A program made the translations under genes and the position numbers. The notes beneath the pieces are model-generated. The model was not told the DNA's origin, searched no databases, and saw only the letters and a program-made list of their open reading frames with translations. 64,000 nucleotides of DNA from Candolleomyces eurysporus (taxonomy: Eukaryota; Basidiomycota; Agaricomycetes; Agaricales; Psathyrellaceae): assembly GCA_027579435.1 (NCBI GenBank), contig JANBPK010000758.1, positions 56,368-120,367 of the forward strand, in the 5' to 3' direction. Positions 15,208 to 64,000 of the stretch are shown here, one piece after another. Each line of letters opens with the position of its first letter. Positions within the stretch are counted from its first letter, which is position 1.

Positions 15208-16164
15208 TGTGATCAAGGGCTGATAGTAGAGAGCAAGCTGAAGCGAGTTTACAGAAGTTTGAAGGAGAGAGTGCGGGGCCAATGAGAATTTGTATGCGAC
15301 GAGAGTTCAAAGCTGAATCTTCTAGGGACAATGGTCATCTAGAGAAACTCAATCAGAAAGGTACTGACTCCAGTAGCCCCTATCAGCCTTCCAGACGTAC
15401 CACCCCGAGTCACAAGAATTTGCTTCTAACAGGGTATCAAAGAAATGGACCCTCTTTTCAAACGTCTATTGTGTTCAATTCTATTCGTTTGATAGGCATG
15501 GCCTTATGATCAGACGATTGCAGCCGCAAAGCATATGCTTCGGTCAAGTAAAGTTCATTCTATGACATTCCAGCCGCACCATAACCTATCCGTCGTCCAC
15601 ATTGGCGTCATCCGCAGTGCGTATGTTCCTTCTAGATAACGGAGCACAGGCGCTTAATGAGCTTCTTCCCCCAATTGTGGGTCCTTAAAACTTCAGGCCC
15701 TGACTTAACGGCGCCATAGGTGTGCTAAATGAGCGAACTATTGTCGTCATCCGCAGTAAAGAATACACTACACCAGATAACGGTGGAAGGTGACGTCAGC
15801 ACCTGACTGAGTAACTGAATAAGATGAGCGCTAAACCCCTGGTCATGGGTTTCGATGACGACTTTGCAATTCAAAGTTAACCAACTTTAATGCTCGAAGT
15901 AGGCTTATTCCGACGGTATCAAATTAATGAACTCTTCTTGGGACTAATCGCTCTTCCAATGAACACAGTACGATGTTGACCTTCGGGATGACGAAGTATT
16001 GATGATTCCAAGCATCCCTCCTCGCATCTTATTGGCCGATATCCAGATAGAAGCGACTGCGGGTCACAAACATCCCAAGTACACAATCAAAATTATAAGG
16101 GTCTGGTCTGGATGAGACACACCAGCGAACGCGTTTGTACCACCCGCCGTTCTTCCTCTCATCA
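15208..16164. promoter_or_regulatory. Shared divergent promoter region of the two glycan genes
   Basis: This 957-bp spacer separates the two outward-reading start codons. A short motif, GTCATCCGCAGT, occurs twice (about 15608 and 15749), followed in both cases by a CAGATAACGG/TAGATAACGG block; the pair could be a regulatory repeat. I see no gene here. Confidence 0.4.
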
Positions 16165-19100
16165 ATGAATCTCATTCCTACTACTCGAAAGACTGTGTTG
16201 ATAACTGGTGGGCATGGTTTTATCGTCAGTATCCTCGCCTATCTGTTCATAGATCCCTGCGAAGACTAACGCCGCTCGTTGATACTAGGGATCCTACGTC
16301 GCCAAGGCGCTGTACCGCTCTGGCACATATACCCTCGTACGGATTGCAGATACCGCTCCCAAGCCATCAATCTTCAAAGAAGAGGTAATCTGCCATGACG
16401 CAATCATTGGGGATCTCCACGACCCCTACACGCTCAACTCTGCTCTAGATGGTATCGAAGTAGTCCTCCACTTCGCTGCTAATATGGGCGGAATGGGAAC
16501 CATCCACTCCCTTAACGACTTCACCATCTACTCCGACAACCACACCATCACTCTTGAGCTCGTCAAGGCGAGTATTGCTGCAGGTGTCAAGCGATTCATG
16601 TACGCTTCCACTGCGTGCGTGTATCCAGAGCATTTGCAGCAAAATTCGTCGGGCGACGTTGGCGACGTATCGCTGAGTGAGGACGATGCATTCGCATGTG
16701 CCGATGCAGAACTTCTCCCTCGACCGCAAGGTCTATACGGTCTGGAAAAGTTGAATACAGAACTTCTTCTGAACCAGTTTTCTTCCCCCCNGACTCGAGA
16801 TCCAAATTGCTCGTTTTCATAACGTCTACGGTCCGGGTGGGACTTACGGTAACGGACGCGAGAAGGCTCCCGCTGCGCTACTGCGAAAGGCCATCGCGCT
16901 GTCGTTACTGGAACCTGCCGAGCCGCGGAAGATGGAGATATGGGGCGATGGAAACCAGCGCCGCAGTTTCCTATACATCGACGATGCCGTCTCCGCCATC
17001 CTGAAGCTCCTGAACACTGGTTACACGTCCCCATTGAACATCGGCTCCGATGAGTCTATCACGATTCGCGACCTCGCACGTATTGCTCTCGACTGCGTTG
17101 GCTTTCCGCGGGAGGACGTCGAGTTCGAGTACCGTCGTGATGACAGACCTATTGGAGTAGGTTCCAGGAACTCTAACAACGAACGCGTCGGCGATGTCCT
17201 CACCTGGAAGCCTACTACGTCCATCGAGCAAGGGATGAAGCTCACCTGCGATTGGATCAAGAGCCAAATTCAGTCCGACCTCCCCACCGATCCCAACTCT
17301 AAATCTCTCTTCCTCCGTCGCCTTCTGGAAAGCAAGATAGTCGATTTGGCCACGGAAACTATAACTTTCGCCATCCTCCTCCCCATCACTTCTCGAGGAG
17401 GATCGCAGCCATCAGCTTGTTTGGAGAATTTGGAGACCTTCGCGCAGTCGTTGGTCAAGACGACGGTCGGTGATCAAGTTATTTCTCGAAACCTAAGCGG
17501 AAGTTGCTACGCCATAAAGATATACCTCGCCATAGACCACGACGACGATTTTCTCCTTGTCGACGGGTCCCTCAACAAGGCCGAACATCTCCTTCGCAAA
17601 CTCGGTTTTGCCGATGTCACAACCATTATCTGTAACCAGCCGAAGGGGCATGTGTGCGCTCTCTGGAGAGATTGTGCTCGTATGGCCTGGAAGGACAAGT
17701 GTGACTACTATGTCCTCTTCGGAGACGACGTCACTGTCCTCGACGATGGTTGGATGAAGAAGGTCGACGACGAGTTTCATGCAATCTCCTCTCGACGCCA
17801 AGTCCCACTCGGCGTTGGCTGTGTCGCATTCACCGATACGTCCTTCCCAGGCATGCCTACGTTCCCTGTCATCCACCGTCGACACATGGATCTCTTCGAT
17901 GGGGAAGTCATCCCCGATATCTTCATTAACCAAGACGGGGACCCCTTCCTCTTCCAGCTCTACCGCAGATGGGGTAGTTCAACGATGATTGATGCCAGGG
18001 TGAAGAATGCCATCGGTGGGAGTGACGACGCACGATACGAGAAGAAACATACCCCCAATTGGTCGTTCGACACACTCAAGCACGCAGTCGAGAAGGTTTA
18101 CCAGTCCCTGCCTCCATCCATTCCGCAAACCATAACTCTCGACATCGTCATTCCATGCTACCGCGTTGATCTGTCTATTCTGTCTCCAATTCTCAACCTC
18201 CATTCTCCACCCAACCTCTCAGTCATGTTCGTTATCATTGTCGACAACCCTGCATCTCCTAATACTCCTCATCTAGAGAAGTTGTTCAGTCATCGCGTCG
18301 ATGTTCGGATCCGAGCAAACAAATCGAACCTTGGCGCCTCGGCCTCTCGCAACAGGGGTTTGAGCCAAGAGTCCTCCGCAGACTGGGTTTATTTTCTCGA
18401 CGACGACATCGTACCCTCCCAGGACCTTCTGTTCGAGGCTGACAAGGTTATCCGAAGGTATCCGAACGCCGCAGGATTCGTAGGCAACTGCAAGTTCCCT
18501 GTTGCTTCAACGATCTTTCAAGCAGCGGTTCACCTGGCCGGTGTAACCTACTTCTGGGATATTGCCGAGAAGATAGAGTCGGACGTTCCGTGGGGTGTTA
18601 CAGCCAATCTAATTGCGCGTCGTACCTTCAACGACGGCGTCACCTTCGATACTCGGTACCCCAAGACAGGTGGAGGGGAAGATATCGACTTTTGTAGGCT
18701 TAAGCGTGCAGCAACTCTGGAGCGACTGGGAAACGGAAAGGGGGAGGCTGAAGGTGTGTTCCAGCCAGCGAAAGACGTTGTTGTAACCCATCCATGGTGG
18801 AAGGATGGGAAGAGGTCGTATTGGAGGTTTTATATGTGGGCCTACGGGGACGGTCTGCTCGTCAGTCGTTTCCCGCAGCTGTCATACACGGATTACGCAC
18901 CCAACAGCGCTGAGCTGACCTCTCTGTGTCTTCTCCTCAGCTCCATCGCAGGGCCTCTACTCGGCCTCCCCACCAACACCTCAAATCCGTTGGTGTTCAT
19001 GGTGACACTCGCACTCCGCTCCCTCGCCTGCTTGCTGGCAGCCAACATTACACACGACCTTTACCGACACCTCTACCTTCATCCTGAGAGGAATGAAGTC

Positions 19101-19358
19101 TTGAATCTAAGTACCAGCATCAAGAAGGTTCCGTGGTTTTGGTTGGCCGTCATCGAGAGCACCTTCATCCGGATGTTCAGCGAATTCGGTCGTCTGAAGG
19201 GCGTTGTTGATCGAAGAGAGTTGGGGGCTCTCGGGCGAAGATTTGATTGGTTTACGGGGCGTGCAGGGAAAGGACCAATTCTGGAGGAAAGGGCGAATAA
19301 CATTCAGCGAATGCTTCTGACTGTTTTCTTATTAGCTTCGAGTTATCTATATGTCTGA
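16165..19358 (+). CDS. GDP-mannose-3,5-epimerase-like domain fused to two glycosyltransferase domains
   Basis: Two exons (16165-16224 and 16289-19358), about 1,042 aa once one surplus base at the CCCCCCN run (16791) is discounted. Residues about 1-340 are an extended SDR: TGGHGFIGS (cofactor), LHFAANMGGMGTIHS, the YGLEK active site, RFHNVYGPGGT, GREKAPAA and EIWGDGNQRRSFLYIDD. This series follows GDP-mannose 3,5-epimerase closely, including the MGGMG block. Residues about 360-640 look like a GT-A fold domain with FGDDVTVLDD and QDGDPFLFQLYRRWG. Residues about 650-860 are a GT2 domain with DIVIPCYRV, GASASRNRG, FLDDDIVPS (metal site) and GGGEDIDF. Two hydrophobic stretches close the protein, suggesting membrane attachment. 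It probably makes or edits a GDP-sugar and passes it to a glycan. Epimerase homology is firm; substrates are not known. Confidence 0.85.
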
Positions 19359-46984: not shown

Positions 46985-47160
46985 CATTGATGGGAGTCGG
47001 CGACTACAACATTGCGACGGGCTAGTGCCGTGTCACAATTGGTAGTCGACGACTACAACATTGCGACGGGCTAGCGCCGCATCACAATTGGTAGTCGATG
47101 ACTACAACATTGAGACAGGCTAGTGCCATGTCACAATTGGTAGTCGACGACTACACTATT
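46985..47160 (+). repeat. Tandem array, about 50-bp unit with GTAGTCGACGACTAC
   Basis: Three to four units, each holding GTAGTCG-A-CGACTAC (47041 and 47140; variants at 46992 and 47092) followed by an AACATTG(C/A)GAC(G/A)GGCTAG(T/C)GCC block and TCACAATTG. Confidence 0.85.
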
Positions 47161-47460
47161 GGGACAGCCATGCGTGAACGGATTTAACGGAGCCGAACAC
47201 CCTAACCCTTACATAGAGAGGGTCCTATTAAGCCACGTCAAAACGGAGTCGACGACTCCAATGTTGGGACAGCCGTGTGTGAACGGAATTAACGGAGCCG
47301 AGCTCCCTAACCCTTACATTGAGAGGTGGTATCAAGCCGCGTCAAAACGGAGTCGACGACTCCGATGTTTGGACGGCCTTGTGCCACGTCACCAGAGGAG
47401 TCAACGACTCCGGTGTTTGGACAGCCGTGCACCACATCACGAATGGAGTCAACAAGCTCA
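47160..47460 (+). repeat. Tandem array, about 100-bp unit with GGAGTCGACGACTCC
   Basis: Units carry GTGAACGGA(A/T)TTAACGGAGCCGA, CCCTAACCCTTACAT and the 15-mer GGAGTCGACGACTCC (47248, 47350), with shorter degenerate units at 47396 and 47446. Confidence 0.8.
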
Positions 47461-47764
47461 TTCAGTAAGGCTCATAATTGTGAACGTACATCAACGGTAT
47501 ATAAGAGTGAATTTGGTGGTGACTAGAAGGGTGAGTGGAGGTGGGTTCAACGGCTTGAAACTTAGTCGGTTAGTCGTTGGGTCAGCAGAGCACTCGGGGG
47601 CAAGTGAGTATTTGTGGATGATTTAAGGTGAAAACAAGGGCGAGGATGACGACAAGGGGTAAATTATACCGAAACAAAAACAGCTGAAAAATGATTTCTC
47701 AAGTGAATGGGAACCAAGGAGGAAAGGTAAGATCTACCAGTAAATATAGTGAATGTTCGCTGAA

Positions 47765-48075
47765 AGGAGTCGACGACTCCATTCGGTGATGCTCTCACAT
47801 GTGAGTGCCNACCGAGGAGTCGTCGACTCCGTTCTGTGATGCTCGTACATGTGAGCGCCCACCGAGGAGTCGACGACTCCGTTCAGTGATGCTCGTACAT
47901 GTGAGTGCCCACCAAGGAGTCAACGACTCCATTCCATGAGGCTCACAGATGTGAACTTTCACCGAGGAGTCGACGACTCCATTCGGTGCTGCTCACACAT
48001 GTGAACGTTCACTGTGGAGTTGACCTCTTTGGTGATGCTCACACATGTGAACATCCACCGAAAGGAGTCGTTGAA
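47765..48075 (+). repeat. Tandem array, about 50-bp unit with GGAGTCGWCGACTCC
   Basis: Six to seven units. Each holds the near-palindrome (both the A-centre form, for example 47768, and the T-centre form at 47815), then a GTGATGCTC block and CACATGTGA, itself palindromic. One N lies at 47810. Confidence 0.9.
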
Positions 48076-48326: not shown

Positions 48327-48760
48327 AATTGAGAGCTGAACGGATTGAAGGGAGTTGATTGAGAACTGAAAAAATGAAAGGGAGTCGATTGAGAGCTGAA
48401 TGGATTGAAGGGAGTCGATTGAGACTGGAACGGATCAAAGGGAGTCGATTGAGAGTGGAACGGATCGAAGNGAGTCGATTGTGAACTGAACAAATCAAAG
48501 GGAGTCGATTGAGAACTGAACGGATCAAAGGGATTCAATTGAGAGTGGAACAGATCAAAGGGATTCAATTGTGAACTGAACAAATCAAAGGGAGTCGATT
48601 GAGAGTGGAACAGATCGAAGGGAGTCAATTGTGAACTGAAGAAATGAAATGGAGTCGATTGAGAGCTGAACGGATCGAAGGGAGTCGATTGAGAGTGGAA
48701 CAGATCGAAGGGAGTCGATTGAGAGCTGAATGGATCAAAGGGAGTTGATTGAGATAGGAG
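48327..48760 (+). repeat. 30-bp minisatellite, about 14 exact-length units
   Basis: The unit reads GGAGTCGATTGAGAGCTGAA plus CGGATCGAAG, with the GGAGTCGATT part recurring every 30 bases at 48351, 48381, 48411 and on to 48741. No unit has gained or lost a base, although substitutions are common. The length being a multiple of three, the minus strand reads as a repeated 10-residue peptide, but it has no start and lies downstream of the RDYD gene's stop. Confidence 0.95.
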
Positions 48761-48890: not shown

Positions 48891-51678
48891 CTAGGGAGAC
48901 GGGGCGTCTACAGGGATAGATTCGTTCTAAGTCTGGTATAAGTTGCTGTAATGTCATAGAAATGTAGAACTCACCCAAGTTGGCCTCCTGTTGCGCATGA
49001 GGACTTGTGGAGCTGGAGTACCCTTGGAGATGCCCGTCGTGTGCTTGAACCGAGGATCTTTTGACCTTGTTGCCCAAATCCGATCACAGAGGGCATTCGG
49101 CGCCCACTCTAGAGTGTTGAACAATTCCCAGAGGGATTTTCGAGCTGCCTTTGCAGTGTCGTCCGTCATTCTCTCCGTCATTGCCTCCCACAATTTGTAG
49201 TACGCCGCATTACCATAGTTCTGAACCGTTCCTTCTTTCTTCACACCTTTTGCTGGCCAGAGATGGTCAAAGCACTGCTTCCATTCTTCACCTGTAGCGA
49301 CAAGCCACTGAACATCGTTGAAGATGTCACAAAGATTGGCATTCTGGAAGGTAGCGATGGTCGTGTTCTCGAGTTGATCCCTTGGGATGGCGCAGTATGT
49401 GCCATCTCTCGCATGTCTGCGATTCGGCACGAGCTTGATCACGTCGCGGAAGAACTGTCGAAAACACCGTTCCATTTGATTGTCCAAGCCGGTCCCCAGT
49501 GGGTCGTCTCTCGAATCCTCATCGGACATTACGATGTCGGAGCCGTCATCACGAAGTGGAGGATCCAGCTCGTGTCCGTTTGTCTCTAGGATGAAACTCG
49601 AGCCTTCAGCAGGATCAGGAGCGTCCATAAGTTCCTGGTGAGTACGATTGTGAAGTCGGGTGGAGTCCCGGGGGATGCTGACTTGGGAGGAACGAAAGTG
49701 CATCAGGATGTCGGTCTTCGATTTGCCGAAAAGGAAACGGACCGCCTTATCGCTCATAGTGATGTTCTTCGCTACCAGTCGAGGAACTGGGACACCTGAG
49801 CGGAGTGGTCGCAAGAAAAACAATCCGTAAGGAACACAAGGCACTAATGATCGACCTCTGGCAAGTGATTCAAGCTGAGTGGCGTCCTCCGCATCAGCCG
49901 CTGAACGAGTTATGAATGCCCCGCCAACTTCTTCGTAGTCCTCGTCCTCGTCCTCGTCATCCATCATCTCTTCATCTTCATAGAGGGATATGGGGAAAGG
50001 AAGTTGGTGAGGCTCTACTTCGCTGCGCCGAACTCGAGGGAGGATGGCGTTCATCAACTCCCGAGCAGACGGTCCGGTATCGGGGGTAGAGTGGATGCCG
50101 TTAAGGAGCCAGGCTAACCCAGCAGTAAGATAGAGTGCCGAGTCAGTCATTCGAAGGTCCGTAGGTCCTCCCCGCTGCCAGTCATCGGTGAACTTGCAGG
50201 CCTGCGCTCTCCAAGCCTTTGTGCCCCTGTTAAATAGGTTATCAGTCCCAATTCGACAAAATGAGCTTTGTAACTCACCACCAAACCCATCTAGGAAAGC
50301 TCAGCAGGCACCGTCGTAGTTCATCCAGGTCGACATCAACGAGAACATTGGCAGCATGCTCGATCGGTACACGAAGCTCAATACGAGCTGTGGAGAAGTT
50401 CTGGTCTGCCCCCTGGCGGTATACGTCGTAGAGCCCTGATATATAAGCCTCCCCTTTGCCGTTTAGAAGCTGTCCAGCGGTGATATATTTGCTGACTTTC
50501 CCATTGTCGAGAGCATAGGTAAGCGCCTTGTCCGTAGTATAGGCTTGCACGTATTGAGCTTCGAACTCGCCCTCGGCTTGAACTCCAGGGGTGATGCGGA
50601 ATCCAGAGGCTCCAACAAGGTGCGAGGCAGGATCGCGATAGTATTTTGAGCTGCCTAGATCGGTGATTCGCCGAGCATGGCAGGCTGGGATTTTGAGAAC
50701 GAGTTGGGCAAGGGAAGCGTGCTTATCCGTTCTCCAAGCAAGGCATCGTTGTTGCAACGAACTGATCTCGGCGCCCACATCGACCCACCACTCTCCAGAT
50801 GCTCTGAGCATTCCGAGCCGAAGACCGATTCTATCGAGAAACTCGTCAAGAGCTGCCTCCCCGTTAGCCGCATCCAAGACGAAATGGTGAGTAGCGTTCT
50901 TCATGCCCCGAATTTGGTGCAGANAAAACGATGTTGGCGCCCCAGTTAATGCCGTTGGAAACAAGAACTCGTCGGAGAGTATCACCGAACCATTGAACTT
51001 GCCAGTCCGGGAGAACTCGAGTCGTAAAGGAAAGCTTTCCCGATTGCTGTCGGGCGCGGAACATCTCGGCATCATAGGTAGGCGGCAGATCACCTCCTCT
51101 GTGCTCGAGAAGAAGCTGCATGGTAGGGAGGAGACCTTTCTCATAGAAGTCCACCTGCTCTTCTCTCTTAAGGTGGAACGACCGTCGATCGGGACCATAG
51201 AGATCGAGAAAGAGAACCCGAATGAGGTTGTGCGACTCCCATTTGCCGATTCCAAGGTTAGGTATGTGGTGAAGAGGAGCCGTGTAGTCTCCCTGTACGA
51301 GCTCAGCGAGATTCAAACACGCTTCAGAAAAATAAGACTCACAGAAGAATTGGTGAAGCTATACTTGAGATGAACGTTGGTTTTCAACGTATCCTCGTAC
51401 TTTGCCACCGGTGTAATAGTGATCGGCCGCTCTTGGACACAGATTTGCCTGTCGATACCAAGGATGGAGTCGTAGTCTCGAGAGATTTGGAGAGTAGGAG
51501 CTTCATCAGCAGTAACGCGGTTATGGATAACGTCGATACTGGCCTGTCGTCCTTCATTGATACCACAGAGGACGAATTGAACGAATTGTTCTGTCTCCTC
51601 ACGAACATATAAGTCGTGGGCCTTTTCACAGAACTGGGTAAGAGTATATGGTTGGATGTCGAGAACTGGGTCTGCCAT
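48891..51678 (-). CDS. RDYD protein A, unrecognised family (module 1)
   Basis: I do not recognise this family. Exons (minus strand) 51678-51343, 51292-50279, 50226-48975 and 48926-48891 have GT-AG ends; the sum is 3n+1 with one N at 50924, so dropping that base leaves 878 aa. Start: ATG at 51678 (MADPVLDIQPYTLTQFCEKA). Exon 1 carries EQFVQFVLCGINEGRQASID and ISRDYDSILGID, shared with the gene at 63265. Exon 2 has GKWESHNLIRVLFLDLYGPD, LPDWQVQWFGDTLRRVLVSN and RCLAWRTDKHASLAQLVLKI. Exon 3 holds an acidic run (DEEMMDDEDEDEDYEE) and a tryptophan-rich end, YYKLWEAMTERMTDDTAKAA ... LFNTLEWAPNALCDRIW. No signal peptide or membrane helix is visible; nuclear action would fit the acidic tract and its SNF2 partner, but that is inference. 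It is divergent from the SNF2-like gene at 54793 across a 3.1-kb repeat-filled spacer. Confidence 0.8.
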
Positions 51679-51879
51679 AGCGGGGAAAGACAAGGGAGAA
51701 GGGAGGATATTCTAGCGGATGACGTTGAGTGGGGTGGGGCAGCTCTATGGATTGAATCCACCTTGGGTATGCTTTTATCAACGAATCGACTTATCCGATT
51801 CCATGCCAGACCCGGATCCGGTGTGCGACGGAAGTTGGCTGTCACTTCTGGACATTTCAGTGCATCTTGCTTAGCTCAC

Positions 51880-54110
51880 AAGGAGTCGACGATTCGAACT
51901 CGCGTTTGAAAGGTCATAAGACTTCAAACTGAATTCAAAAACACGTTCAAGGGATCACAAGCTCCCTAGACGGAGCCCTGAGGCACGTAGTAGCACTGAG
52001 GCTATGTCTCTCAAAGCAATTTTGGGCAAATGAGCAGAGTTGCCGAAATTGTGAAACAGAGTCATTGCCTCATTTTCGGAATGATTCTCTACAGTCTCCG
52101 AGGTTGAGGAGTGAAAAGGCAAGTAGGCATTTCCGAACCGAACCTGCACTTGAACGAGGCTTTGAAACTCTATTTGAAAGCATGTTGGGTTCGTCACAAG
52201 GTCCCGAAAGCAACCATGAGGCGTATTTGACCATTGTAGCTACCTCTCTCAACACGATATTGGAACACATAAGTAGATTCGTTGACTCCTTGACGTGATT
52301 CTCTACAGTCTCCGAAAGTGTCAAGTTGCCGACTCCGTAAAATAACACTCTTTCTAAGGAAAACTGAATTGGTCACATAGTCCCTACATTGAACCACGAG
52401 GCGTACTTTAGCATTGTGGCTGTCTCTCAATACAAGATTTGGAAAAAAGAGCAGTCGTCAACTGCTTCTTGACGTGATCCTCCGCAGTCTCTGGAATTGT
52501 AAAGTAACCGACTCCCTGAATGAATCTATTTCAAAGGCACGTTGGATTGATCACAAGGTTTCTGAGAGGAGCCACAAGACGTATTTTAGCGTCATGATTC
52601 ACAAATGAACAGAGCTGTTGGCGCTTTGACATGATCCTCTACAGTCTCCGAGAGTGTGAAGACGCCGACTCCGAAATGACATTCTTTCTAAGGCAAATTG
52701 AATTCGTCACAAGGTCCTTTCATGGAGACACGAGGCGCACCTTGGCATTGTGGCTGTCTCTGAATACAAGATTTGGAAAAAAGAGCAGAGTTGTCGACTG
52801 CTTCTTGACGTGATCCTCTACAGTGTCCGGGATTGTGAAATAACCGACTCCCAAGGGATCCTATTTCAAAACCATGTTGGATTGGTCACAAGGTTCCCGA
52901 AAGGAGCCACAAGACGTATTTGAGCATCATGGTTCAGTCTCAACGCACAAATGAACAGGCGCTTTGACGTTATCTTCTACAGTTCCCGGAGTGTCGAAGT
53001 CACCGACTCCGTGGAATAGCACTCTTTCAAGAGTGCATTGCATTGGTCACAAGGTCCCTGGATGGAACCACGAGGCATATTTCAGCATTCTGGCTGTCTC
53101 CCAACACAGAATTCGGACAAATGGGCAGAGTCGTCGTCCAATTTGACGTGATTTTCTAGAGTCGTTGGAATAGTAAGTCGGAGTCGTCGACTCCTTGAAT
53201 TGATTCTGTACAGTCTTCATAGTTGGGAAGCGAAGGCACATAGTGCCATTTCTAAGCCAAACATGTGTCTGAACAAGGTTTGGAAACCATTTTGAAAGGC
53301 ACGTTGAAACGGTCACAAGGTCTCTAAATGGAATCATGAGACGTTTCATGGCATTGTGGCGATGACTATGATTTTTGGTTAAATGAACGGAGTCGTTGAC
53401 TCCTTTTTGGAGGGATTCTCTATAGTTTCCGAAGCTGTAAAATGGAGCCATCGACTCCTTGAAACGGTTCCTGTCGTCTCCAGAGTTGGTAAATGAAAAG
53501 ACAGAGTGCCATTTTCGAACCAAACATGTGTTGGAGCTGGGTGTTTAAACGGCATTCAAAGGTAGGTGGAGTTGATCACAAGATTACTGAATAGTGCCAT
53601 GAGGTATTTTATAGCATTGTGGCAACGCCTCAACACGATTTTGGTCAAACGAACAGAGTCGTCGACTCCCGAGTCCCTTTTGGAGGGATTCTCTATGGTT
53701 GCCGAAGCTGTAAAACGGAATCATCGACGCCTCAAAACTGCTTCTATACAGTCTCCAGAATTGGTAAGTGGAGACGGAGTGCTATTTTTGAACTAAACAT
53801 GTGTTTGAATTGGGCGTCTCGCTGTATTCAAAGGCACATTGAATTGATTACAAAGTCCCTAAATCAAGCCGTGAGGCGCTTCAGAGCATTGTGCCAACGC
53901 CTCTTACCATGACGTTTGGACAAATGAGCGGAGTCGTCGACTCCTTTTGGGAGTAACTCTTTGCGTTTGTCGAAATCCCAAAGATTAACTCTCTCAAACT
54001 GGTTGTCTCCTGCACTGGGGGAAAGAATAAGGTATTCTCTATCTGATCGGGTTGGAATCTATGAGCAGATCTCGAGCCAAGTCGTCAACTCAAACTGGCT
54101 CTCAACAGTC
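51880..54110 (+). repeat. Degenerate satellite, about 160-180-bp unit, in the divergent spacer of module 1
   Basis: About ten or more units. The marker TGA(C/T)(G/A)TGATNCTCTACAGTCTCCG recurs at about 52293, 52467, 52627, 52803, 52962 and 53140, then with larger and less regular spacing to 53990. Many units end with a GGAGTCGTCGACTCC-type site (clear at about 53180, 53930; variants at 51882, 52283, 52457, 52790, 53392, 53647). It fills most of the sequence between the two start codons, so it is the promoter region of both genes or has invaded it. Confidence 0.8.
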
Positions 54111-54269
54111 ACATGCGAGCAAGCCCTGCACTCCCGACCCATTCTGATTCTGGGTGGGACTTGTACTTTGTTTGCTCTACTCAACAGGTCCCTTGCTCCG
54201 TAAACATCCCATCATGCTCCAGAGCCTCATCCCTATAAGTAGCTGAGGTTTTTGTGAACCCTCCTCACA

Positions 54270-54540
54270 CAACCGCCCCCAGATCTTGTTCAATATCTCT
54301 TGTAGCTCGATGACACTACCACCCCCAGATCTCGTTCAACACACATCGTAGCTCGTTGTAACTACTTCCTCCCGCTTTCACTCAGCATTCACCATAGCTC
54401 ACTGTTACTATCTCGTTTAACATTGATTGTAGCTCGTTGTCACTACTGCCTCCAGTTCTCATTCAGCATTCATCATATCTCGGCGACACCACCACACCCA
54501 GGGCTCGTTCAACATCTATAGCTCATCGTGAGTAATGACC
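54270..54540 (+). repeat. Short tandem array, about 60-bp unit
   Basis: About five units built on (C/A)ATCTCGTTCAACA, CATCGTAGCTCGTTGT(A/C)ACTAC and a C-rich piece, just upstream of the truncated SNF2-like gene. Confidence 0.7.
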
Positions 54541-54792
54541 TGTTTATCTTGATACATTGTTCACGCCTCTGGTTACTTGATGTATCCTGATATCATGACG
54601 ATTGGATCTGTTCTCTGCTTCCTTGATCTTGCATCCCACTCGTATGCATCATAGGTCTATCATCTGCTATCCAAGGTATGTCTTAAATGCTTTCCCGCAC
54701 TCAACAACTTCTGATAGAACCACTGGCAGTTCCATTTGCTCAAGCCACGCGCCGTAAGTTATATTTCCAGATTATGAGTTCCACGCTGAAGC

Positions 54793-56298
54793 ATGGATGT
54801 CATACCTCGCTTAGGGCACAGGGCTACCATGCCATCACATACGCCTGCTAGTGCTCTCGTGAAGCTCTATTTTGCCCTCCGAGGTGCTCCCTGGAATTTC
54901 ATGCGATGGCAAGAAATTACCAACATTCATCACGGCCTCAATCCCAAGAAGGACAAGCACCTGCCACCTCCCCTCACAAGGGAGGAAGTTTCTTCAATCC
55001 TCTCTTACTTCAATCAGTATGACGCATTAGGTACTGAAGATGCGAAGATCAAATTCGCCTCCAAGGCAAAGAAGAAAGGAAAAGATACCGTTCCCGGACG
55101 TGGATTCTGGACGACCTGGGTCAACAAACACTATTCGACTAAATGGAAGATCAACGGTCGCATCGCGAAGATTTTCTCCTTGCTAGGCATTCATCCTGAA
55201 CAAATTATGGCTGCGACCGGCGAGTGCACTCCACCATCTAGCGCTAGCTATCTTCCTGTTGCTCTCGACATCATCGGCCGAGAAATCTTTGGCCCTGAGG
55301 CTCTTGATTCACACCAAATGCTGCTCACAAGGCTATGGGAACCTGCGTTGATTCTCGCTCAACGTACCTGGTTTCTCGAAACCAAGTCGATCGGTCCAAG
55401 GAGGGCTAAGGTGGAGAAGATGAAACAAAAGGCTGAGACTCTACTGTCAGGTTTGTTGTTATAATTGCTGTAGCTCTGCGCAGTCTGACAAACAGCGTTG
55501 ACAGAGCTCGATCAGGGGAACGTTACGATCCGAGGGATCAATCAAGCAATTCGGGCTGTGGCCAACTTTGAGAAGGCAGTCACAGCATTATTCACCGAGG
55601 ATCACGCTGCGACTCTTGATGCCTTCAAGGCACTCCTTGAGCGTTTCATCCCAGAAGATTTCTCAAAATCGAAGTCGGGTGCAAGGAGGGTACAGAAGAT
55701 GTCAGGTGCGCTCACTCCGTTCCCTTTTCTCTTTGTGTGCCTAACTGGCTGTACAGCGAAACGAAAGGTCACCACCGAAAGTCTCTCCAAGCTCGCAACT
55801 CCTGAGGAAGTCTCTCAGCTGCTTGAGATGTACGATCAATTCTTTGGAGCAGAGTCAGACTCTAACGAAGAACTGGACGCTGAGGAGCACCAATTCGTTT
55901 CATTCGGTGAGCCTGTTCAGGGAGCAGATCCTGGCGTGGAGATCGAAGCGAAGATGTCGGCCTCAGACCTTGCCGCCAATCTCGGTTTCCAGAACGGGAT
56001 GCCGTTCCTGTTCAACACCAAACGACTTTCAAGTGGAGGGACTGCATGGTCGCAAGAGTTCGAAGATGCCTGTAACTCAAAACCAGACGCTCTTGAACCT
56101 TTCTCCCTGCAATGGCACCAACTCGCAGGTGTTCATGCCGCTTTACGGAAAGTACTCAGTCCAACCTCCAATCCTCACCACTGTACTGGTATATTATTTG
56201 CTGATGACGTTGGACTTGGAAAGACGATACAGGCGTCGGCAATCATGGCGTCTCTCTCAGGGCTGAGCGTTCATATATCAAAGCGAGTAGACAAGTGA
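54793..56298 (+). pseudogene. SNF2-like ATPase copy 1, truncated after Walker A (module 1)
   Basis: Reads right, divergent from RDYD protein A. Exons about 54793-55450, 55505-55704 and 55757 onward. The N-terminal region (LYFALRGAPWNFMRWQEITN, GRGFWTTWVNKHYSTKWKIN) matches the start of copy 2 (GAPWSWPRWKEITGIQHGL; GRTLWRTWIVNNWPRWKIQ). The ATPase part begins PVQGADPGVEIEAKMSASDL, LQWHQLAGVHAA and FADDVGLGKTIQA, a sound SNF2 motif I. About 15 residues later the frame enters the ACCATCGACGATGGT array and stops. Motifs Ia-VI are missing and the opposite strand beyond the array belongs to copy 2, so this ATPase cannot be functional as it stands. It has no internal stops before the break, so the loss may be recent. 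The true start codon may lie further upstream. Confidence 0.8.
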
Positions 56299-57185
56299 GA
56301 TAACATATGACCATTGTCACAATCATATGTGAGTAGCATTCCCATATCAAAAATAAATGGACGAGCAAGTGAGCACAGATGACCATCGACGATGGTCGCA
56401 TGTGGGTAACATTCCCATTAAAAAATAGGTGGGTGTAGGAGGGAGTACATATGACCACCGTCGGTGGTTGTATGTGGATGCCATTCATATATCAAAGTGA
56501 GTAGACGAGTGAGATAACATATGACCATTGTCACAATCATATGTGAGTAGCATTCCCATATNAAAAATAAATGGGCAAGTGNGTGAGCACAGACAACCAT
56601 CGATGATGGTCGCATGTGGGTAGCATTCCTGTTAAAAAATAGGTGGGTGTAGGAGGGAGTCCATACAACCATCGACGATGGTCGTATGTGGGCAGCATTC
56701 GCATATCGAAGTAAGTAGACGAGTGAGATAACATCTGACCATCGTCATAATTGTATGCGAGTAGCATTCCCATATCAAAAATAAATGGGTGAATGAGAGA
56801 GCACAGACGACCATCGGCAATGGTCGCATGTGGGTAGCCTTGCCATGATGAAACGAGTCAATGGGTGAGGGAGTCTATACGACCATCGACGATGGCCGTA
56901 TGTGGGTAGCATTCACACATTGGAACAAGTTGGCGAGTGGGCACAGACATATCAACATGAGTGGACCTGTGAGGGTGCCCATACGACCATCGGCAATGGT
57001 CGCATGTGGGTAGCAAGTACAAACAACAATTGCTGATGGTTGCCTACATGCATCGCTTGTACCTGACCATCGGCGATGGTCGCCTGGGGGCATCACTCGG
57101 TCTGAAGCATCTTGTGCCTGAGTATCACTGATGGCTGTATGAGTGCATCACTCATAGCCGACCATCATCGATGGTCGACTAGGTG
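56270..57185 (+). repeat. Tandem array, about 70-bp unit with ACCATCGWCGATGGT
   Basis: About thirteen units. Each starts with a near-palindrome, best form ACCATCG-A-CGATGGT (56383, 56668, 56883) with variants such as ACCATCGATGATGGT and ACCATCGGCAATGGT, followed by CG(C/T)ATGTGGGTAGCATTC and CATATCAAA. Units alternate between strict and degenerate forms. The array begins inside the truncated SNF2-like gene and ends about 200 bp before the 3' end of the opposite SNF2-like gene. Ns lie at 56562 and 56582. Confidence 0.9.
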
Positions 57186-57386
57186 CATCACTGCACCAAC
57201 AGCTGCAATGATCCATGCCTAAGTCGTGAATCTGTACCAATCTTCCCATTGCACCCACCCACAATTGGGTTCTCTACTAACATTCCGAGTTCATGAGAGG
57301 CATGCAAATCTGGTGTCATAAACAAGCAAGGTGAAACGACAACGACTATAATACTTGAAAAACGACTGAGGGATTCCAGGCCTATC

Positions 57387-60300
57387 TCACTTTCTCTTGC
57401 TCTCCTTTGGCACAGCGAATGGATTCTTCAGTTGTGGAACCTGCCCCTGCGATGCTGGATTCGGTGCAAAGTGGGCTGGGGTCCTGCGAGGAATTGCATC
57501 TATAAAAGTAATATGTCAAAGTCGTACATATAGAGAGCCCAAGGTGACTAACCAGATCTACTCGTGCTTGACCCCGAGGCTTGTGGCTGGTGAGGTGCCG
57601 ATGAGGAAGGAGGCTGGGTAGGTCGATACCGAGATTCCAGGGCCATTCTTTGCTCAAGCAGATTTCTATCAATCTGAGCTCGCATGTCTAAGGCCGACGA
57701 CGAGTGGGTCAAGGTTGGATGTGGGATATGAGAGGCTGAGGGTTGGGCTTGAGCTCGTATGTTTGAGGTTGAGGACGAGTGGGTCAAGGTCAGCTGAGGG
57801 ATACGAGAGGCTGAAGATTGGGCTTGGGCCAAAGGTGGGGCTTGAACGAAAGGAGGTGGACCACCTTGGGCAAATTGGGGTGCAGGAATACGATTAGCTG
57901 ACAAAGAGGATCCTGATGCCTGTTTTGCTTGGCGGAGGGATTCACTTGAAAACAACTTTTTTGGTAAAGGGCGATTCAGTTTGTTTGACTGTGGCAAGGG
58001 AGGAGTTACTTCGAGATCGGAGTCGCCAAGTCTACGATGTTGACTTTGAGCTGGGGCTTTCCCTTTGCGATTCTGATGAGGTGGTGGAGATGGGGTTCGG
58101 GGTGGACGATTGTTGGGAAGAAGGCGAGAGAAACCAGGATGTAGTGAAGGAATTGAACCAGTCGGTGGATGAGGCTGGCTACTTGCTGCCACCTGTCGCC
58201 TTTGTCGCTGGGGGGGGACTCTGGTATGGCTTCGGCTTCTTGGTTGCAGTTTCTACAGACCGAGAAGTCGGGTCAATGGCTGAATCTGATCGCAATCGCT
58301 TCTTGGGCTCGTCCGATGGGCCAGGTTGAGGAACATCTACAAATTGGTGAGATAAAAAAAAATGCATGTACAAGGAAGAGCACTTACGAGGTTCCATATC
58401 TTCATCAGAAGATGGATAGCTGATCGGCGAAAATAAGCCATCTGAAGAATTTGATTCAGGTGTTTGTGCTCGTTGATTGGGAGGAGGGGGAGATAGATGT
58501 TCAATATCCTCGCTGTCGGAGGATGCACGAGTTGAAGGTGGTCCAAACGATTCAATATCAGAGGGACCTTCCCGATCAGAGGCTGTAAACGATAAAGTTA
58601 CATCAAGAAGTCGGACTGGCAAGCAGAGAGGACTAAACATGGCCATACCTGACGACATTCCACTCATATCAACATCCGACACTCCATCTTGACCTATGAC
58701 AGCTGATGGCTGATCGTCGACCTCATCTTCCTCAATAATAATAGGCTTTGACTTGACCCTTTGCCTCTTTGATTTAGCGACCTGCTTCTTTCGTGGTTTT
58801 TCGTGAAGACTAGGCTCGTTGGGTGCAGCAGAGGAGCTTGCAATATTTTGACGAGAGCTCTTGCCTTTGTGACGACCAGTACTGCTGCCTTCAATCTCCT
58901 CGTCTTGGCCGAAACTGAAGTCGTTCCCAGTCAAAATATCCCCAAGCCCTGCAAACGAAACAATTGAGCCACAAGCTCAGTTGGTAGAGTGCATATTTTA
59001 CTTACTTCTCTGTGTACTGCTGGTCAGGAAGGCCTCCGACACAATCTCTTTCCCCCGAGACAGACTCGCAATGAAGTAGTCCACAGTTCCAGCTGCGAGG
59101 ATGTGGTAGGCAGTAACAGGGCAAGTTTGGCCTTGGTGATAGATACGACCAATAGCCTGGCGATCATCAGCATACGACCACTGCTGATCCTGCATATATG
59201 TCAGAAAAAACGAGAGAGATAGCTGGTGCAAGAACCGACTCACAAGGATGATAATCGTGTCAGCTTCGGTGAGATTCAAACCAGTTGTACCGACTTTTGA
59301 AAAGATTAAAACCCGAGTTGTAGGATCAGTTCTAAATCGCTCGACAACCTTCGCTCTCTGGTCATAGGTCATAGATCCATTAATGGCCAAGGCTGGAACC
59401 TTGTACACTGAGAGGACCTAGAAAGAAGAATTAGCGACTCGACTAATGAATTAGAAACATGGAACTTGCATCAATAAGGAGTTGGAGGAAGATCGCCCAT
59501 TCCTGATAGATCAGGATTTTGCGAGTGCGAGGGCCAGCCTGGGTCAGATCGATCTCTGGTAGGACAAGGGCTCCATCGACAACTGTGGGTCGAGGTGCTG
59601 CATCGGAAGATAGAAGGTAGGCTGCAAGTCGGGCAGTTGTGTCCACTTTTGTTGTCTTCTTTGGTTCCCACATGCGATAGGATGTGAAACGAGGAATTGG
59701 GGCAGACATGTCCTCACGAGGGAAGGTGACACTCATCCTCTCGTTTGACCAGAAACTCTCTGTAGCGACACCTAAGGCAGCAGCCTGTGATAATCTGAGA
59801 TATCAACGAGTTAGCCAGTAAAGCGATAAAAATGTCGAGGCTCCCACCTTTCTATCGCTTCTTCAGGAATGCTGTTGTCAACAAACTCCAGCTCCCATTC
59901 CTGCAACTGAAGAGTGACATCGATGATCTTGCAAGGAGGAAGAACGAGCAGAGGCTTCTTGTCGAAATCCAAGCTGGCTGCCTTTCGTCGGATAAGGCGG
60001 TTCTCAAACTGGCTTTGCATTCGCACAGATGCTTCAACTTGAAGAGCGACAACAGGATTAGGTTTTGAGTCACTGGAGTCCCCAGAACCTAGTTCCTGTT
60101 TCGCTCTGCGAATTGCAGCAGCATCCTGGGTGATCTCGTCCAGATACTCCTGGGTTGAGAAATAGGGTATCCCGACCATCCGACCTATCGCACCAGTATC
60201 CTGTTATACAAGTCGTAAGCCAGTAGATCATTTCTGAAACTCAAAGATCACATACCTCAACCCTCGTTTGAAGTGGAGTCGCTGTTAGAATAAGCCAAGT

Positions 60301-62358
60301 GTGACTCTTTGCGAGAATCAGAAGTGCAGCAGAGTGTGTGGACCCATAGTTCCGAGCAGCCTGGGCTTCGTCAAAGATGACAGTGAGGTACTGCTGACCA
60401 TACAGAGTTTTTCCTCGTCGCGAGTCTGCCCCAAGTCGTTCAGGGGGATGCTCAAAGGGGAGTCGCTCAGAGACAGGCACCCTGCTATTTGGCTCCCAGA
60501 GCAGCCGATACTCCTGCAATAGTGTCTGCAGACCATCAGCCGATTGGGATGGACAAGTAAATAATTAAGAACTCACCGAATGTGAGGCGACAATAATACG
60601 ATTGCACCTTTCGTGTTGACTTTTGTTGTAAGGGCTATCGTCAGCCCAGAAGCGATCACGAGCAGCTTTGGAACTGGGGTAGCAGAAGATATCGACAGCA
60701 TGGAGCTTGAATAACACCTGGAGCTCGCCCAGCCACTGTCGCTGGAGAGTTCCTGGAGCGAGAATGAGAGTTGGGCGATTGGGAATCTTTTTCACCGTCC
60801 CAAGGTATGGAAAGGTGTCTGCTCGGCAATTCAGAGAGTCATCGAAGCTGAATTAAAATCATGTACTCACTAATAAGAGGGGGAAGAGGAAGCTTCTTCT
60901 TCTGCTTCACTCCAAGTTCGATCAAGAACCCAGCAAAGAGAAGAGCGAGGAAGCTCTTTCCAAGGCCGACATCATCAGCGATAAGCATGCCAAGGATATT
61001 GGTGACACTTCGCTCCTTTGTGAAGAACCTGCAAGCGATGGCATGAGCACCAGCAAGTTGGTGCCAGTGCATCTTAATCGGCTTGAAGAGCTTGGCATTC
61101 TCCTGTCTGAGATGGAAGGCCTGGAATACTCGTTCACCAGTGGCAGACCAAGATGTGATACGACCAACATGGCGGTGCTGGTTGAAGAGAAGGAGTCGGC
61201 CATGGTCGTCGAGCTGGAGATTGGCACAAAGCTCGTCATATGACATGGAGGCTTCCACTTCCACACCAGGGTCGGCCCCATCAACAGGTTCAGCAAAGGG
61301 AATAGAGCTTGTGGCACAGAGTTCAGGAAGTTGCTCGTCGGGGGCGAAGTGAGCATCAAAAAGAGCAAGAATTTCCTGAACATCTTCGCTCCTAGCCAAA
61401 GTCTTGAATGCCTGGGGCTTGAATTTGGTCCCTGAAAGAACCATTTTAGAGTCATAAAAAAGGTGAAAAGATAAACACACCTCTCTTCCTGACGACTACA
61501 GGATTGAAAAGATCCTCTTCAACCCTACCACCTAAAGCCTTCCTGATATCGCCGAGCTCAAGCTCCATGTGGGCAAGCTTGAGTAAGTTCTCCTCCGAGT
61601 TCCAGAGCATAACATCCTTTCGCCAGTTTGCAACCATCTTAACAAGTGAGGTGACCTTGTGCTTTGTAGGAGCCTCTTTCTCGAGTTCTATTGGGCAATT
61701 GTATCAGTCATACCACAGGGAAGCACGAACAAGGAGCCATACCCTGAAAGGCAGCATCGATTGCCCCCTCATTTCGCACAACACGATCAATGAGTCGTTG
61801 GGCTGTCTTCCGAAGATTGTTGGAAGCCGACAAGGCGAAAATGTGGACTGACTTGCAAAGCAAATATCGAATTTTCCCATTGCTATCTAAGCCATCGTCG
61901 CCAAAGAGAGTATAGGCAATTCGATCGAGGGCATCGCCTATCGGAATGTCTTTGGGGAGGCCTTGGAGGTTGTTGGCGACCATAATCTGCATCCAGAGGC
62001 AGTTTGAGTCCTCGAAGGCATTGTGGATTTTGAGCTGGATCTTCCACCGAGGCCAGTTGTTAACGATCCAGGTTCGCCACAGAGTTCGACCAGAGTAGTC
62101 TTCAATATTGGCCTTTTTGGTGACCGAAGCAAAGGCATGCTTCGCATCTTCAGTCGGAAGAGCTCGGTATGCCTCAAAGTAAGAGTGAATAGCTTTGGCC
62201 TCTTCGCGAGTCCAGCCAGGAGGAAGGTGGGCATCGTCGGCAGGGAATAGGCCATGCTGGATCCCAGTTATTTCCTTCCAGCGAGGCCAACTCCAAGGAG
62301 CACCTGGAATATTGTAGTAGAGTCAGAGAAGACCACTATGGTTGAGATGGACGACCAT
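57387..62358 (-). CDS. SNF2-like ATPase copy 2, both helicase lobes present (module 2)
   Basis: DNA-dependent ATPase/translocase of the SNF2 class (Rad5/Rad16-like lobe order), probably nuclear. More than ten exons. From the amino end: a Trp-rich unrecognised domain shared with copy 1 (GAPWSWPRWKEITGIQHGL; TLWRTWIVNNWPRWKIQ), then PVDGADPGVEVEASMSYDEL, motif I IADDVGLGKSF (about 60970), Ia TLILAPGTLQRQWLGEL, II VIFDEAQAARNYGS, III LILTATPLQT, then lobe 2 VPALAINGSMTYDQRAKVVE, IFSKVGTTGLNLTEADTIII and VI RQAIGRIYHQGQ. Oddities: motif II is DEAQ rather than DEAH/DEGH, and the arginine finger of motif VI is His. The C-terminal ~400 residues are Ser/Pro/Lys-rich with basic clusters (RKKQVAKSKRQRVKSK; end PKESKRK). 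The reading frame changes near a G8 run at 58210, by an intron or a miscall. The start is uncertain; I chose ATG 62358, 81 bp after a TATAAAA. Confidence 0.8.
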
Positions 62359-62438
62359 TTCAAAAGTTACAAAAGGCGAAGTGCGAAGATGCTGAGTGCA
62401 GCGACGAATGTGAAGAAGGTGTTCGGTGTGCAGCATCC

Positions 62439-62445
62439 TTTTATA
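62439..62445 (-). promoter_or_regulatory. TATA box of SNF2-like ATPase copy 2
   Basis: TATAAAA on the minus strand, 81 bp upstream of the chosen ATG; it argues that the coding region starts below 62410 and that open frames at 62441-62900 are upstream sequence. Confidence 0.55.
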
Positions 62446-62594
62446 GTTTGCCAGTTACCCTCATCAACCAGCTCGACTTTGCGAAATCTGAAGTCCAATG
62501 GCGACAATACAGCCAGGTGTTCAAACAACTGGCCGATATATCTCTGCATTCTCTTGTCATTCTCCTTGGTATCATGCCCAAGGCCAACATTGAA

Positions 62595-62850
62595 CCAATC
62601 GGTGGGTAGGAGATATTGCTTACAGTCAGCAAAGGCTTGGGCGAGAGTCAGAAGGGCCAAAAATGTGGATGAATCGTCCAATCGGTGGCCAGAAGGTATT
62701 GCTCACAGACAGCAAAAATCTTGGACTAGAGTCAGAAGACCCAACAGTGTGAACGAATCGTCCAATCGGTGGCCAGATGGCATCGCTCTTAGTGAGCAAA
62801 AGTCTTGGGCTAGAGTCAGGCGGCCCAAAGGTGCAACAGAATCGTGCCAA
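62595..62850 (+). repeat. Three-unit tandem repeat in the divergent spacer of module 2
   Basis: Units of about 84 bp start CCAATCGGTGG (62596, 62680, 62762) and include CTTGGNC(G/T)AGAGTCAG(A/G) and ATCGT. They lie between the two start codons of module 2, the same place as the satellite in module 1 but of unrelated sequence. Confidence 0.8.
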
Positions 62851-63186
62851 ATGATAGCTTTCGGTCGGAACATGGCCCCGAAGACCTTGTTATTGTGCTG
62901 AATGAGGCTTGTAGATTGAGATAAGGCAGGACTTGGCATAGCCTCATGTCCCCGAAAATATCGTCATCGTTGTAAACGAGGCTCAGAGCTCAAAACGAGG
63001 CAAGCCTCATGTCCGAGGATAGAGTCACTTGGACGAGAGCCTGACCCCCGGCGAATAAGGCACCAATCATAACCCAGCATCATTTCTCCGAGGAATTGGC
63101 CTCCAATGGTCGGCATGTGGATGAAGTCGGCCGATGTGCCCAAGACAGTGTGGCAGGTATTACTCGCTTGCAACTCGTCCAATGCC

Positions 63187-63193
63187 TTAAATA
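63187..63193 (+). promoter_or_regulatory. TATA-like element of RDYD protein B
   Basis: TTAAATA 78 bp before the ATG at 63265, followed by a CT-rich leader (CCCCCCTTCTCTCTC) typical of fungal promoters. Confidence 0.45.
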
Positions 63194-63264
63194 CTCCCCC
63201 CTTCTCTCTCAACTCCACGACTCAGACGAGCCAGTTTCTGCCCCACTTCTCGCTCTACTTCGCG

Positions 63265-64000
63265 ATGCCACCTCTACCAACCACTCAGTTCTCCCTAGAG
63301 GAGTTCGTCGCCCATATGCAGGACCTGCTCACCAGCAACCAGCCTGCTGAATTCATCAAGTTCGCTCTCACTGGCCAGCACCAAGGTCACCAGGCTGTCA
63401 TAGATGCTCTCCAGAACCAAATATATGACCTCGGCGAAGATGAGGCAGCCCACCCATATACTGTAACTCGTGACTACGACTCAGTTCTCGGAGTGTCCCC
63501 CAACATATGCATCTACAACCATTCCATTGTCGTCAACATTCTTCCCAAGTTTCAGGACTCGCTCTCAAAGGATGTCGGTATTACCCACAAAGTCAAGTAC
63601 CGAGGTGTAAGTCGCCCTTTATAGCAGATTAGGGTTAAGGGGGACTCTAGGGACCAATCCCTAGAAATTTCCGATCCTTAGGACCAATCCCTAGAGCTCC
63701 AGAGCTTGACCCTGGACCCAATCCCTAGGAACAATCCCTAGAGCTCTAGAGCAACCCTAGCACCAATCCCTGGGACAATCTCTATCTCTATAGCTCTATA
63801 ACTCAACTCTCTAACTCAACTCTCTAGCTCAACTCTCTAGACAAAACCTTGCACCCATCCCTATATCCAAGATAACTGCATGCACCATTCACTACAGCTA
63901 AGCATCCACAAGTTCTATCCTTCACAGTGTTAGATACTAATCTATTTCTTGACTTCACAGATCCAGTGCTCACTTCATCCAGAGATGCATGCAAGTGGGA
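63265..64000 (+). CDS. RDYD protein B, N-terminal part (module 2; runs off the window)
   Basis: Diverged paralogue of the gene at 48891-51678. The ATG at 63265 gives MPPLPTTQFSLEEFVAHMQD; EFIKFALTGQHQGHQAVIDA and VTRDYDSVLGVSPNICIYNH match exon 1 of copy A residue for residue in the key places. Exon 1 ends at 63606 after 114 codons (112 in A), with a GTAAGT donor at the same place in the protein. The intron (63607-63960) is 354 nt against 50 nt in A, because it is filled with tandem repeats. Exon 2 begins at 63961 with CSLHPEMHASG, comparable to PLHHIPNLGIG in A. It is divergent from SNF2-like ATPase copy 2, with 907 bp between the start codons. Function unknown. Confidence 0.8.
63637..63845 (+). 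repeat. Tandem repeats inside intron 1 of RDYD protein B
   Basis: About six imperfect copies of ACCAATCCCTAG followed by AGCTCTAGAG, then CTCAACTCTCTA units. AGCTCTAGAGCT-like parts are palindromic. Confidence 0.8.

Follow-up and report, generated by a model that had tools for sequence, protein, structure and literature searches.

A divergent gene pair of agarics, encoding an SNF2-type ATPase and a protein of no known fold, with a possible link to chromosome ends

The right end of contig C1037 (120,367 bases) of Candolleomyces eurysporus, analyzed here as a window of 64,000 nucleotides from an assembly of 1296 contigs, contains two divergent gene pairs, each combining an SNF2-type ATPase with a protein of no known fold, termed RDYD. 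The best explanation, to which we give a probability of about one half, is that these genes represent a chromosome-end-linked, co-duplicating gene pair of agarics that works in a manner similar to the telomere-linked helicases (TLH). Pairing in several genera, joint duplication and co-divergence of the partners, and purifying selection are observed, as are a telomere inside one copy of the pair and a telomere-abutting satellite beside another.

An earlier note on this DNA had described two head-to-head modules in the window, and both divergent pairs are indeed present (Table 1); a third head-to-head copy is found in the same genome on contig C1231. The first ATPase gene does begin on the plus strand at the proposed position, but it is truncated just past the Walker A region, with a minisatellite 3' of the truncation point. 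The second, proposed to be SNF2-like and on the minus strand, has Walker A, DEAQ, and helicase-C motifs in a maintained frame; the correction here is an in-frame stop at codon 12, where the relative P0040 reads through. RDYD A is identical to the annotated protein H1R20_g4263 (100% over the 69% covered) and contains a single ambiguous base N at 50924, where the frame changes; the C1231 copy, like RDYD A, has a single-base N with a frame change. For RDYD B, no match to the part past exon 1 was found elsewhere in the C. eurysporus assembly. The reported agreement of the first RDYD exons holds: that of A measures 336 bp and that of B 342 bp, and each is in phase 0. These exons are just 31% identical, and thus the duplication is old, as the note had also stated. 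The start-to-start distances are 3151 bp in pair A, 907 bp in pair B, and 2141 bp in the C1231 copy.

Table 1. Genes and repeats of the two divergent pairs, in window coordinates
Feature	Position	Strand	Description
Minisatellites	46991..48050	.	units of 49, 105, 48, and 50 bp with palindrome GGAGTCGWCGACTCC; includes the repeat that abuts the telomere on C1007
RDYD A (H1R20_g4263)	48975..51678	-	three exons: 51678-51343, 51292-50279, 50226-48975
Divergent spacer of pair A	51800..54000	.	diverged repeats at ~160-270 bp spacing and two exact palindromes
ATPase 1	54829..56271	+	truncated after the family N-terminal part and the Walker A region
Array between both modules	56266..57220	.	carries a different palindrome, CGACCATCGWCGATGGTCG
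ATPase 2 (H1R20_g4266)	58179..62358	-	SNF2-type, ten exons, frame kept from 62322; 3' end approximate
Tandem repeat of pair B	62595..62850	.	three copies of 84 bp within the divergent spacer
RDYD B exon 1	63265..63606	+	only exon 1 present; the contig stops at the window's end

Several other features of the window were observed. A 30-bp minisatellite of 14 copies (48328-48754), without the palindrome, lies just downstream of RDYD A. A CCCTAG-rich minisatellite (63620-63860), which starts near TTAGGGTTAAGGG, follows exon 1 of RDYD B and either belongs to a long intron or marks a broken end. Proximally, the window contains adjoining glycosyltransferase, methyltransferase, and epimerase frames (13426-15306, 16773-19355), and a Tc/mariner-type transposase frame (DDE_3, HTH_Tnp_Tc3_2) occupies 7278-8441 on the minus strand.

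Two combined searches yielded 35 different relatives of the ATPase, of which 34 were aligned (P0054 was omitted). The helicase-C region matches SNF2/Rad54-family remodelers including LSH, INO80, and others (best E 2.3e-20); the Pfam helicase C domain is detected in the ATPase (E 1.8e-12), and PF00176 is precomputed for its relatives. ATPase 2 carries ADDVGLGKS, DEAQ, TATPLQT, GLNL, and Q..GR, which we take to be SNF2 motifs I, II, III, V, and VI, respectively, and by these motifs it belongs to the SNF2 family. The helicase-C region and the SNF2 motifs are common to this protein and the LSH and INO80 remodelers, whereas its N-terminal region, with about 400 family-specific residues, has no Pfam match. 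The best PDB stretches (best 60 of 77) all fall in the C-terminal part.

The RDYD family is large and has no functional annotation. Of 7998 candidates scored, 36 are relatives at E <= 0.01, coming from Candolleomyces, Coprinopsis, Coprinellus, Gymnopilus, Pholiota, Flammula, Phlegmacium, Galerina, Termitomyces, Lyophyllum, Macrolepiota, Leucocoprinus, and Suillus, with some on metagenome contigs. The named relatives are annotated as "hypothetical", and none of the 36 has a precomputed Pfam domain. Comparisons with Pfam, PDB sequences, and PDB folds gave no sign of a known domain. The first RDYD model had no Pfam match at E <= 1; in the scan of all 36 members none matched at E <= 0.01, and four families appeared at E <= 0.1 (best 0.034). 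The PDB sequences gave one chance match (E 1.5). The AlphaFold model of P0001, built from 36 sequences, has a mean pLDDT of 84.9 and a pTM of 0.68; Foldseek comparison of the whole chain with 350,542 PDB chains produced no match at E <= 0.001, the best E being 1.1 among the best 50 of 61 matches up to E 10. A nuclease or transposase fold, which the earlier note had suggested looking for, thus finds no matching Pfam family, PDB sequence, or PDB fold. Six columns of the alignment are invariant (D283, T300, H303, Y329, R344, and T365) and may form an active or binding site.

The two families tend to be linked. In the eight species with matches to both, 8 of 17 RDYD proteins share a contig with an ATPase relative among the matches listed, linkage being scored by shared contig and locus number; the same eight make up 8 of the 36 RDYD relatives overall. 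The linked pairs come from C. eurysporus (g4263/g4266), C. aberdarensis (g13406/g13407 and g8477/g8476), C. efflorescens (g6374/g6375), Coprinopsis sp. MPI-PUGE-AT-0042 (contigs of 453,799 and 538,227 bases), C. marcescibilis (601072/601103), and Lyophyllum atratum (a contig of 698,287 bases). Three of the pairs among the matches listed have consecutive gene numbers. On the three largest contigs linkage means a shared contig rather than adjacency, and the divergent orientation is known from C. eurysporus alone. Unpaired homologs, which the note had named as evidence against a functional unit, do occur to some extent: among the matches listed, 9 of the 17 RDYD proteins have no ATPase match on their own contig, several of these contigs being short, and no linkage is seen for the three proteins of Gymnopilus dilepis or the two of Macrolepiota fuliginosa. 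The recurrence of the pair in other species argues that the pairing is not due to chance.

The partners also diverge together. RDYD B is 69% identical to P0022 over 101 residues, and ATPase 2 is 69% identical to P0040; P0022 and P0040 are the products of consecutive genes in C. aberdarensis, so that both partners match as orthologs. For the eight linked pairs, the RDYD and ATPase distance matrices correlate with r = 0.89 (p 0.0001, 20,000 permutations), in a set that omits RDYD B/ATPase 2 and C1231, where one partner is incomplete, and in which ATPase 1 is represented by 206 residues. When the two C. aberdarensis pairs exchange partners, r falls to 0.12; the same exchange between the two Coprinopsis sp. 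pairs leaves it at 0.87. Recurrence in Candolleomyces, Coprinopsis, and Lyophyllum, duplication as a block, and co-divergence of the partners bear out the proposal that the pair is a conserved unit.

The block duplication is evident in C. eurysporus, where we found at least five loci, three of them head-to-head pairs (A, B, and C1231). For RDYD and ATPase exon 1, comparison of pair A with C1231 gives dS values of 0.763 and 0.754 and dN/dS values of 0.15 and 0.12, respectively. The equal dS of the two partners, together with the low dN/dS, indicates a single duplication of the block followed by purifying selection. ATPase 2 and the C81 copy yield dN/dS of 0.14 with dS near saturation, and the C81 copy has a stop in its first exon.

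Several copies are broken, being truncated, solitary, or decayed. On C81, the 9.7 kb upstream of an ATPase gene lack RDYD; on C1137, the 19.8 kb examined contain an RDYD remnant but no ATPase. The CpG observed/expected ratio of these solo copies is 0.32 (C81) and 0.20 (C1137), with an excess of TpG/CpA; it is 0.95-1.03 for RDYD A and the C1231 copy and 0.65 for ATPase 2. Such depletion at the solo copies would fit silencing by methylation. However, the surroundings are also low in CpG (0.17 for C1137, 0.64 for C81), so the depletion marks regions and not genes alone. In the C1137 region (152000-161900; ratio about 0.2), a RecQ-like open frame (154528-155346) lies near the RDYD remnant.

The placement at chromosome ends, like the palindromic arrays described below, is a new point that goes beyond the earlier note, and it is observed in one genome, that of C. 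eurysporus. TTAGGG arrays of at least four units occur on ten contigs, at contig ends in nine cases (100 of 103 matches listed); the array at C1142:130575-130652, 8.7 kb inside its contig, is an interstitial telomere repeat or a misassembly. On C1231, the TTAGGG array directly follows the codons of exon 2 of the ATPase 1 counterpart and extends as far as the end of the contig. The repeat that immediately precedes TTAGGG on C1007 (7131-7318 of the extracted locus L037) has 81% identity to window positions 47234-47432 in the same orientation, and hence a repeat beside RDYD A is of a kind that borders a telomere. Other relatives of the 46.7-48.1 kb segment are found no more than 0.9 kb from the ends of C207, C82, and C590, at 4 kb from an end of C516, and at about 8 kb from the C1231 telomere. 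Several facts count against the chromosome-end reading: one relative of this segment is situated at 10.6 kb in the 26.0-kb contig C588, among the matches listed, none to RDYD or the ATPase falls at eight of the nine contig ends that carry TTAGGG, and contig ends gather repeats anyway.

The minisatellites are rich in palindromes. Perfect palindromes with arms of at least 7 number 5.7 per kb between 46.7 and 48.1 kb and 4.2 per kb between 56.27 and 57.22 kb, against a background of 0.09 per kb in the first 44 kb of the window. The 15-bp palindrome GGAGTCGWCGACTCC has 10 exact sites in the genome, and its reversed pattern has none. Eight of these flank RDYD A on C1037, six downstream and two in the divergent spacer; one is within 0.4 kb of the C590 end, and one is about 0.1 kb before the C1007 telomere. 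The palindrome recurs in units that are otherwise not clearly alike (lowest shuffle p 0.03) and measure 49, 105, and 50 bp in the window, 149 bp on C590, and 81 bp on C1007. In some variants both arms are altered (GTAGTC...GACTAC; ACCACCG...CGGTGGT), which may mean that the symmetry of the palindrome matters. Two observations are less favorable: the C1231 units, related to the 50-bp unit, contain the palindrome with 2-5 mismatches and in no perfect copy, and at up to two mismatches the genome has 253 sites versus 149 for the reversed control, an excess of 1.7 times.

Three other explanations have to be weighed against a chromosome-end-linked gene pair. The foremost of them, though unlikely, is that these are two ordinary host genes, for example of chromatin or repair, that share a divergent promoter and occupy a chromosome end in this genome incidentally. 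SNF2 ATPases are mostly host genes, and purifying selection, relatives across many genera, and the presence of the pair at only one of the nine TTAGGG contig ends among the matches listed would all be expected; ordinary host genes agree poorly, however, with a copy number that varies widely (four RDYD proteins and at least nine ATPase relatives in C. aberdarensis) and with the broken copies of C. eurysporus. An assembly artefact, in which repeat-rich contigs break at the modules and the C1231 telomere junction is a chimera, is very improbable: despite the 1296 contigs and the single ambiguous bases at which RDYD A and the C1231 copy change frame, two separate facts concur, namely the gene-telomere junction on C1231 and the telomere-abutting repeat of C1007 beside RDYD A.

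Next after the host-gene explanation we rank, as improbable, a transposon or another mobile element that prefers chromosome ends, in which RDYD would act as a transposase or nuclease of unknown fold, assisted by the ATPase, and the palindromes would be its binding sites. It remains a live rival because near-identical RDYD proteins are encoded on two contigs of Coprinopsis sp. MPI-PUGE-AT-0042 (25 of the 36 RDYD proteins compared). The multi-copy, patchy occurrence, the invariant D, H, Y, R, and T columns, and the repeat arrays on both sides of RDYD A would also be in line with mobility. However, the copies within C. eurysporus are old and diverged, and the inverted repeats around the modules consist only of palindromic arrays and gene-gene matches, with no terminal inverted repeats among the 25 of 43 inverted pairs listed. 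RDYD also lacks the transposase domain that characterizes DNA transposons (Pfam, 0 of 36 members; no PDB fold at E <= 0.001). The mobile or selfish nature suggested by the note is therefore not borne out. Viral contigs were considered as well and rejected, as none of 38 pattern matches was confirmed.

The closest parallels to a chromosome-end-linked pair are found among known subtelomeric genes. According to the respective papers, 19 RecQ gene models of Agaricus bisporus var. burnettii are all subtelomeric (PMC7473861), RecQ genes of Ganoderma lie near some telomeres (PMC10817607), and the chromosome ends of Ustilago maydis carry the RecQ-like helicase element UTASa and, nearby, a different element, UTASb, composed of a core and an OrsD domain (PMC10532341). 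The present pair resembles TLH genes in comprising multi-copy helicase-superfamily genes, some complete and some truncated, whose presence varies by lineage, and, at C1231, in lying next to telomere repeats. It differs in that the motor is of the SNF2 and not the RecQ type, matching SNF2 and helicase-C models, in that it is paired with RDYD, and in that its place is known from one genome. Since the ATPase core is not RecQ, the pair is not a member of the telomere-linked helicases. With the Ustilago elements it shares the combination of a helicase element and a second, different element at chromosome ends; in contrast to UTASb, no OrsD domain was found by Pfam in the 36 RDYD members. A RecQ model produced 36 matches in C. 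eurysporus, none above the cut-off, none on the ten TTAGGG contigs, and none on C1037; one match below the cut-off is at 154.5 kb of C1137, near the RDYD remnant. Among the listed open-licence articles on helicase/SNF2 and subtelomeric or telomere-linked genes, titles and abstract beginnings contain no description of the pair.

How a chromosome-end-linked pair of this kind would function can be outlined. Ectopic recombination or break-induced replication may spread the pair from one chromosome end to another, a route also proposed for telomere-linked helicase genes. RDYD and the ATPase, which are linked and co-diverge, may be partners in a complex, and the two proteins might act jointly on subtelomeric chromatin. 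RDYD could serve as the recognizer, with the repeated palindromes as its candidate site, and the ATPase would move or strip proteins there. The outcome may be a benefit to end maintenance or recombination, with copies born and lost fast, and the proteins would either serve or exploit their place at the chromosome end. A bolder version, which we regard as doubtful and place after the transposon, is an element of chromosome ends that consists of two genes and brings its own cis site: the SNF2 motor and its new-fold partner would recognize dyad-symmetric sites in dissimilar subtelomeric satellites and copy or protect those ends, each pair having its own palindrome, as a selfish or domesticated end-maintenance system.

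The RDYD proteins constitute a large conserved family without annotation, for which the confident structural model provides a starting point. The purpose of the RecQ helicase genes that expand at the chromosome ends of fungi is unsettled. If the chromosome-end reading is true, the pair would be a second chromosome-end module, unrelated to RecQ and equipped with a candidate DNA site, and would offer a direct route to asking whether such genes serve telomeres or their own propagation, and how.
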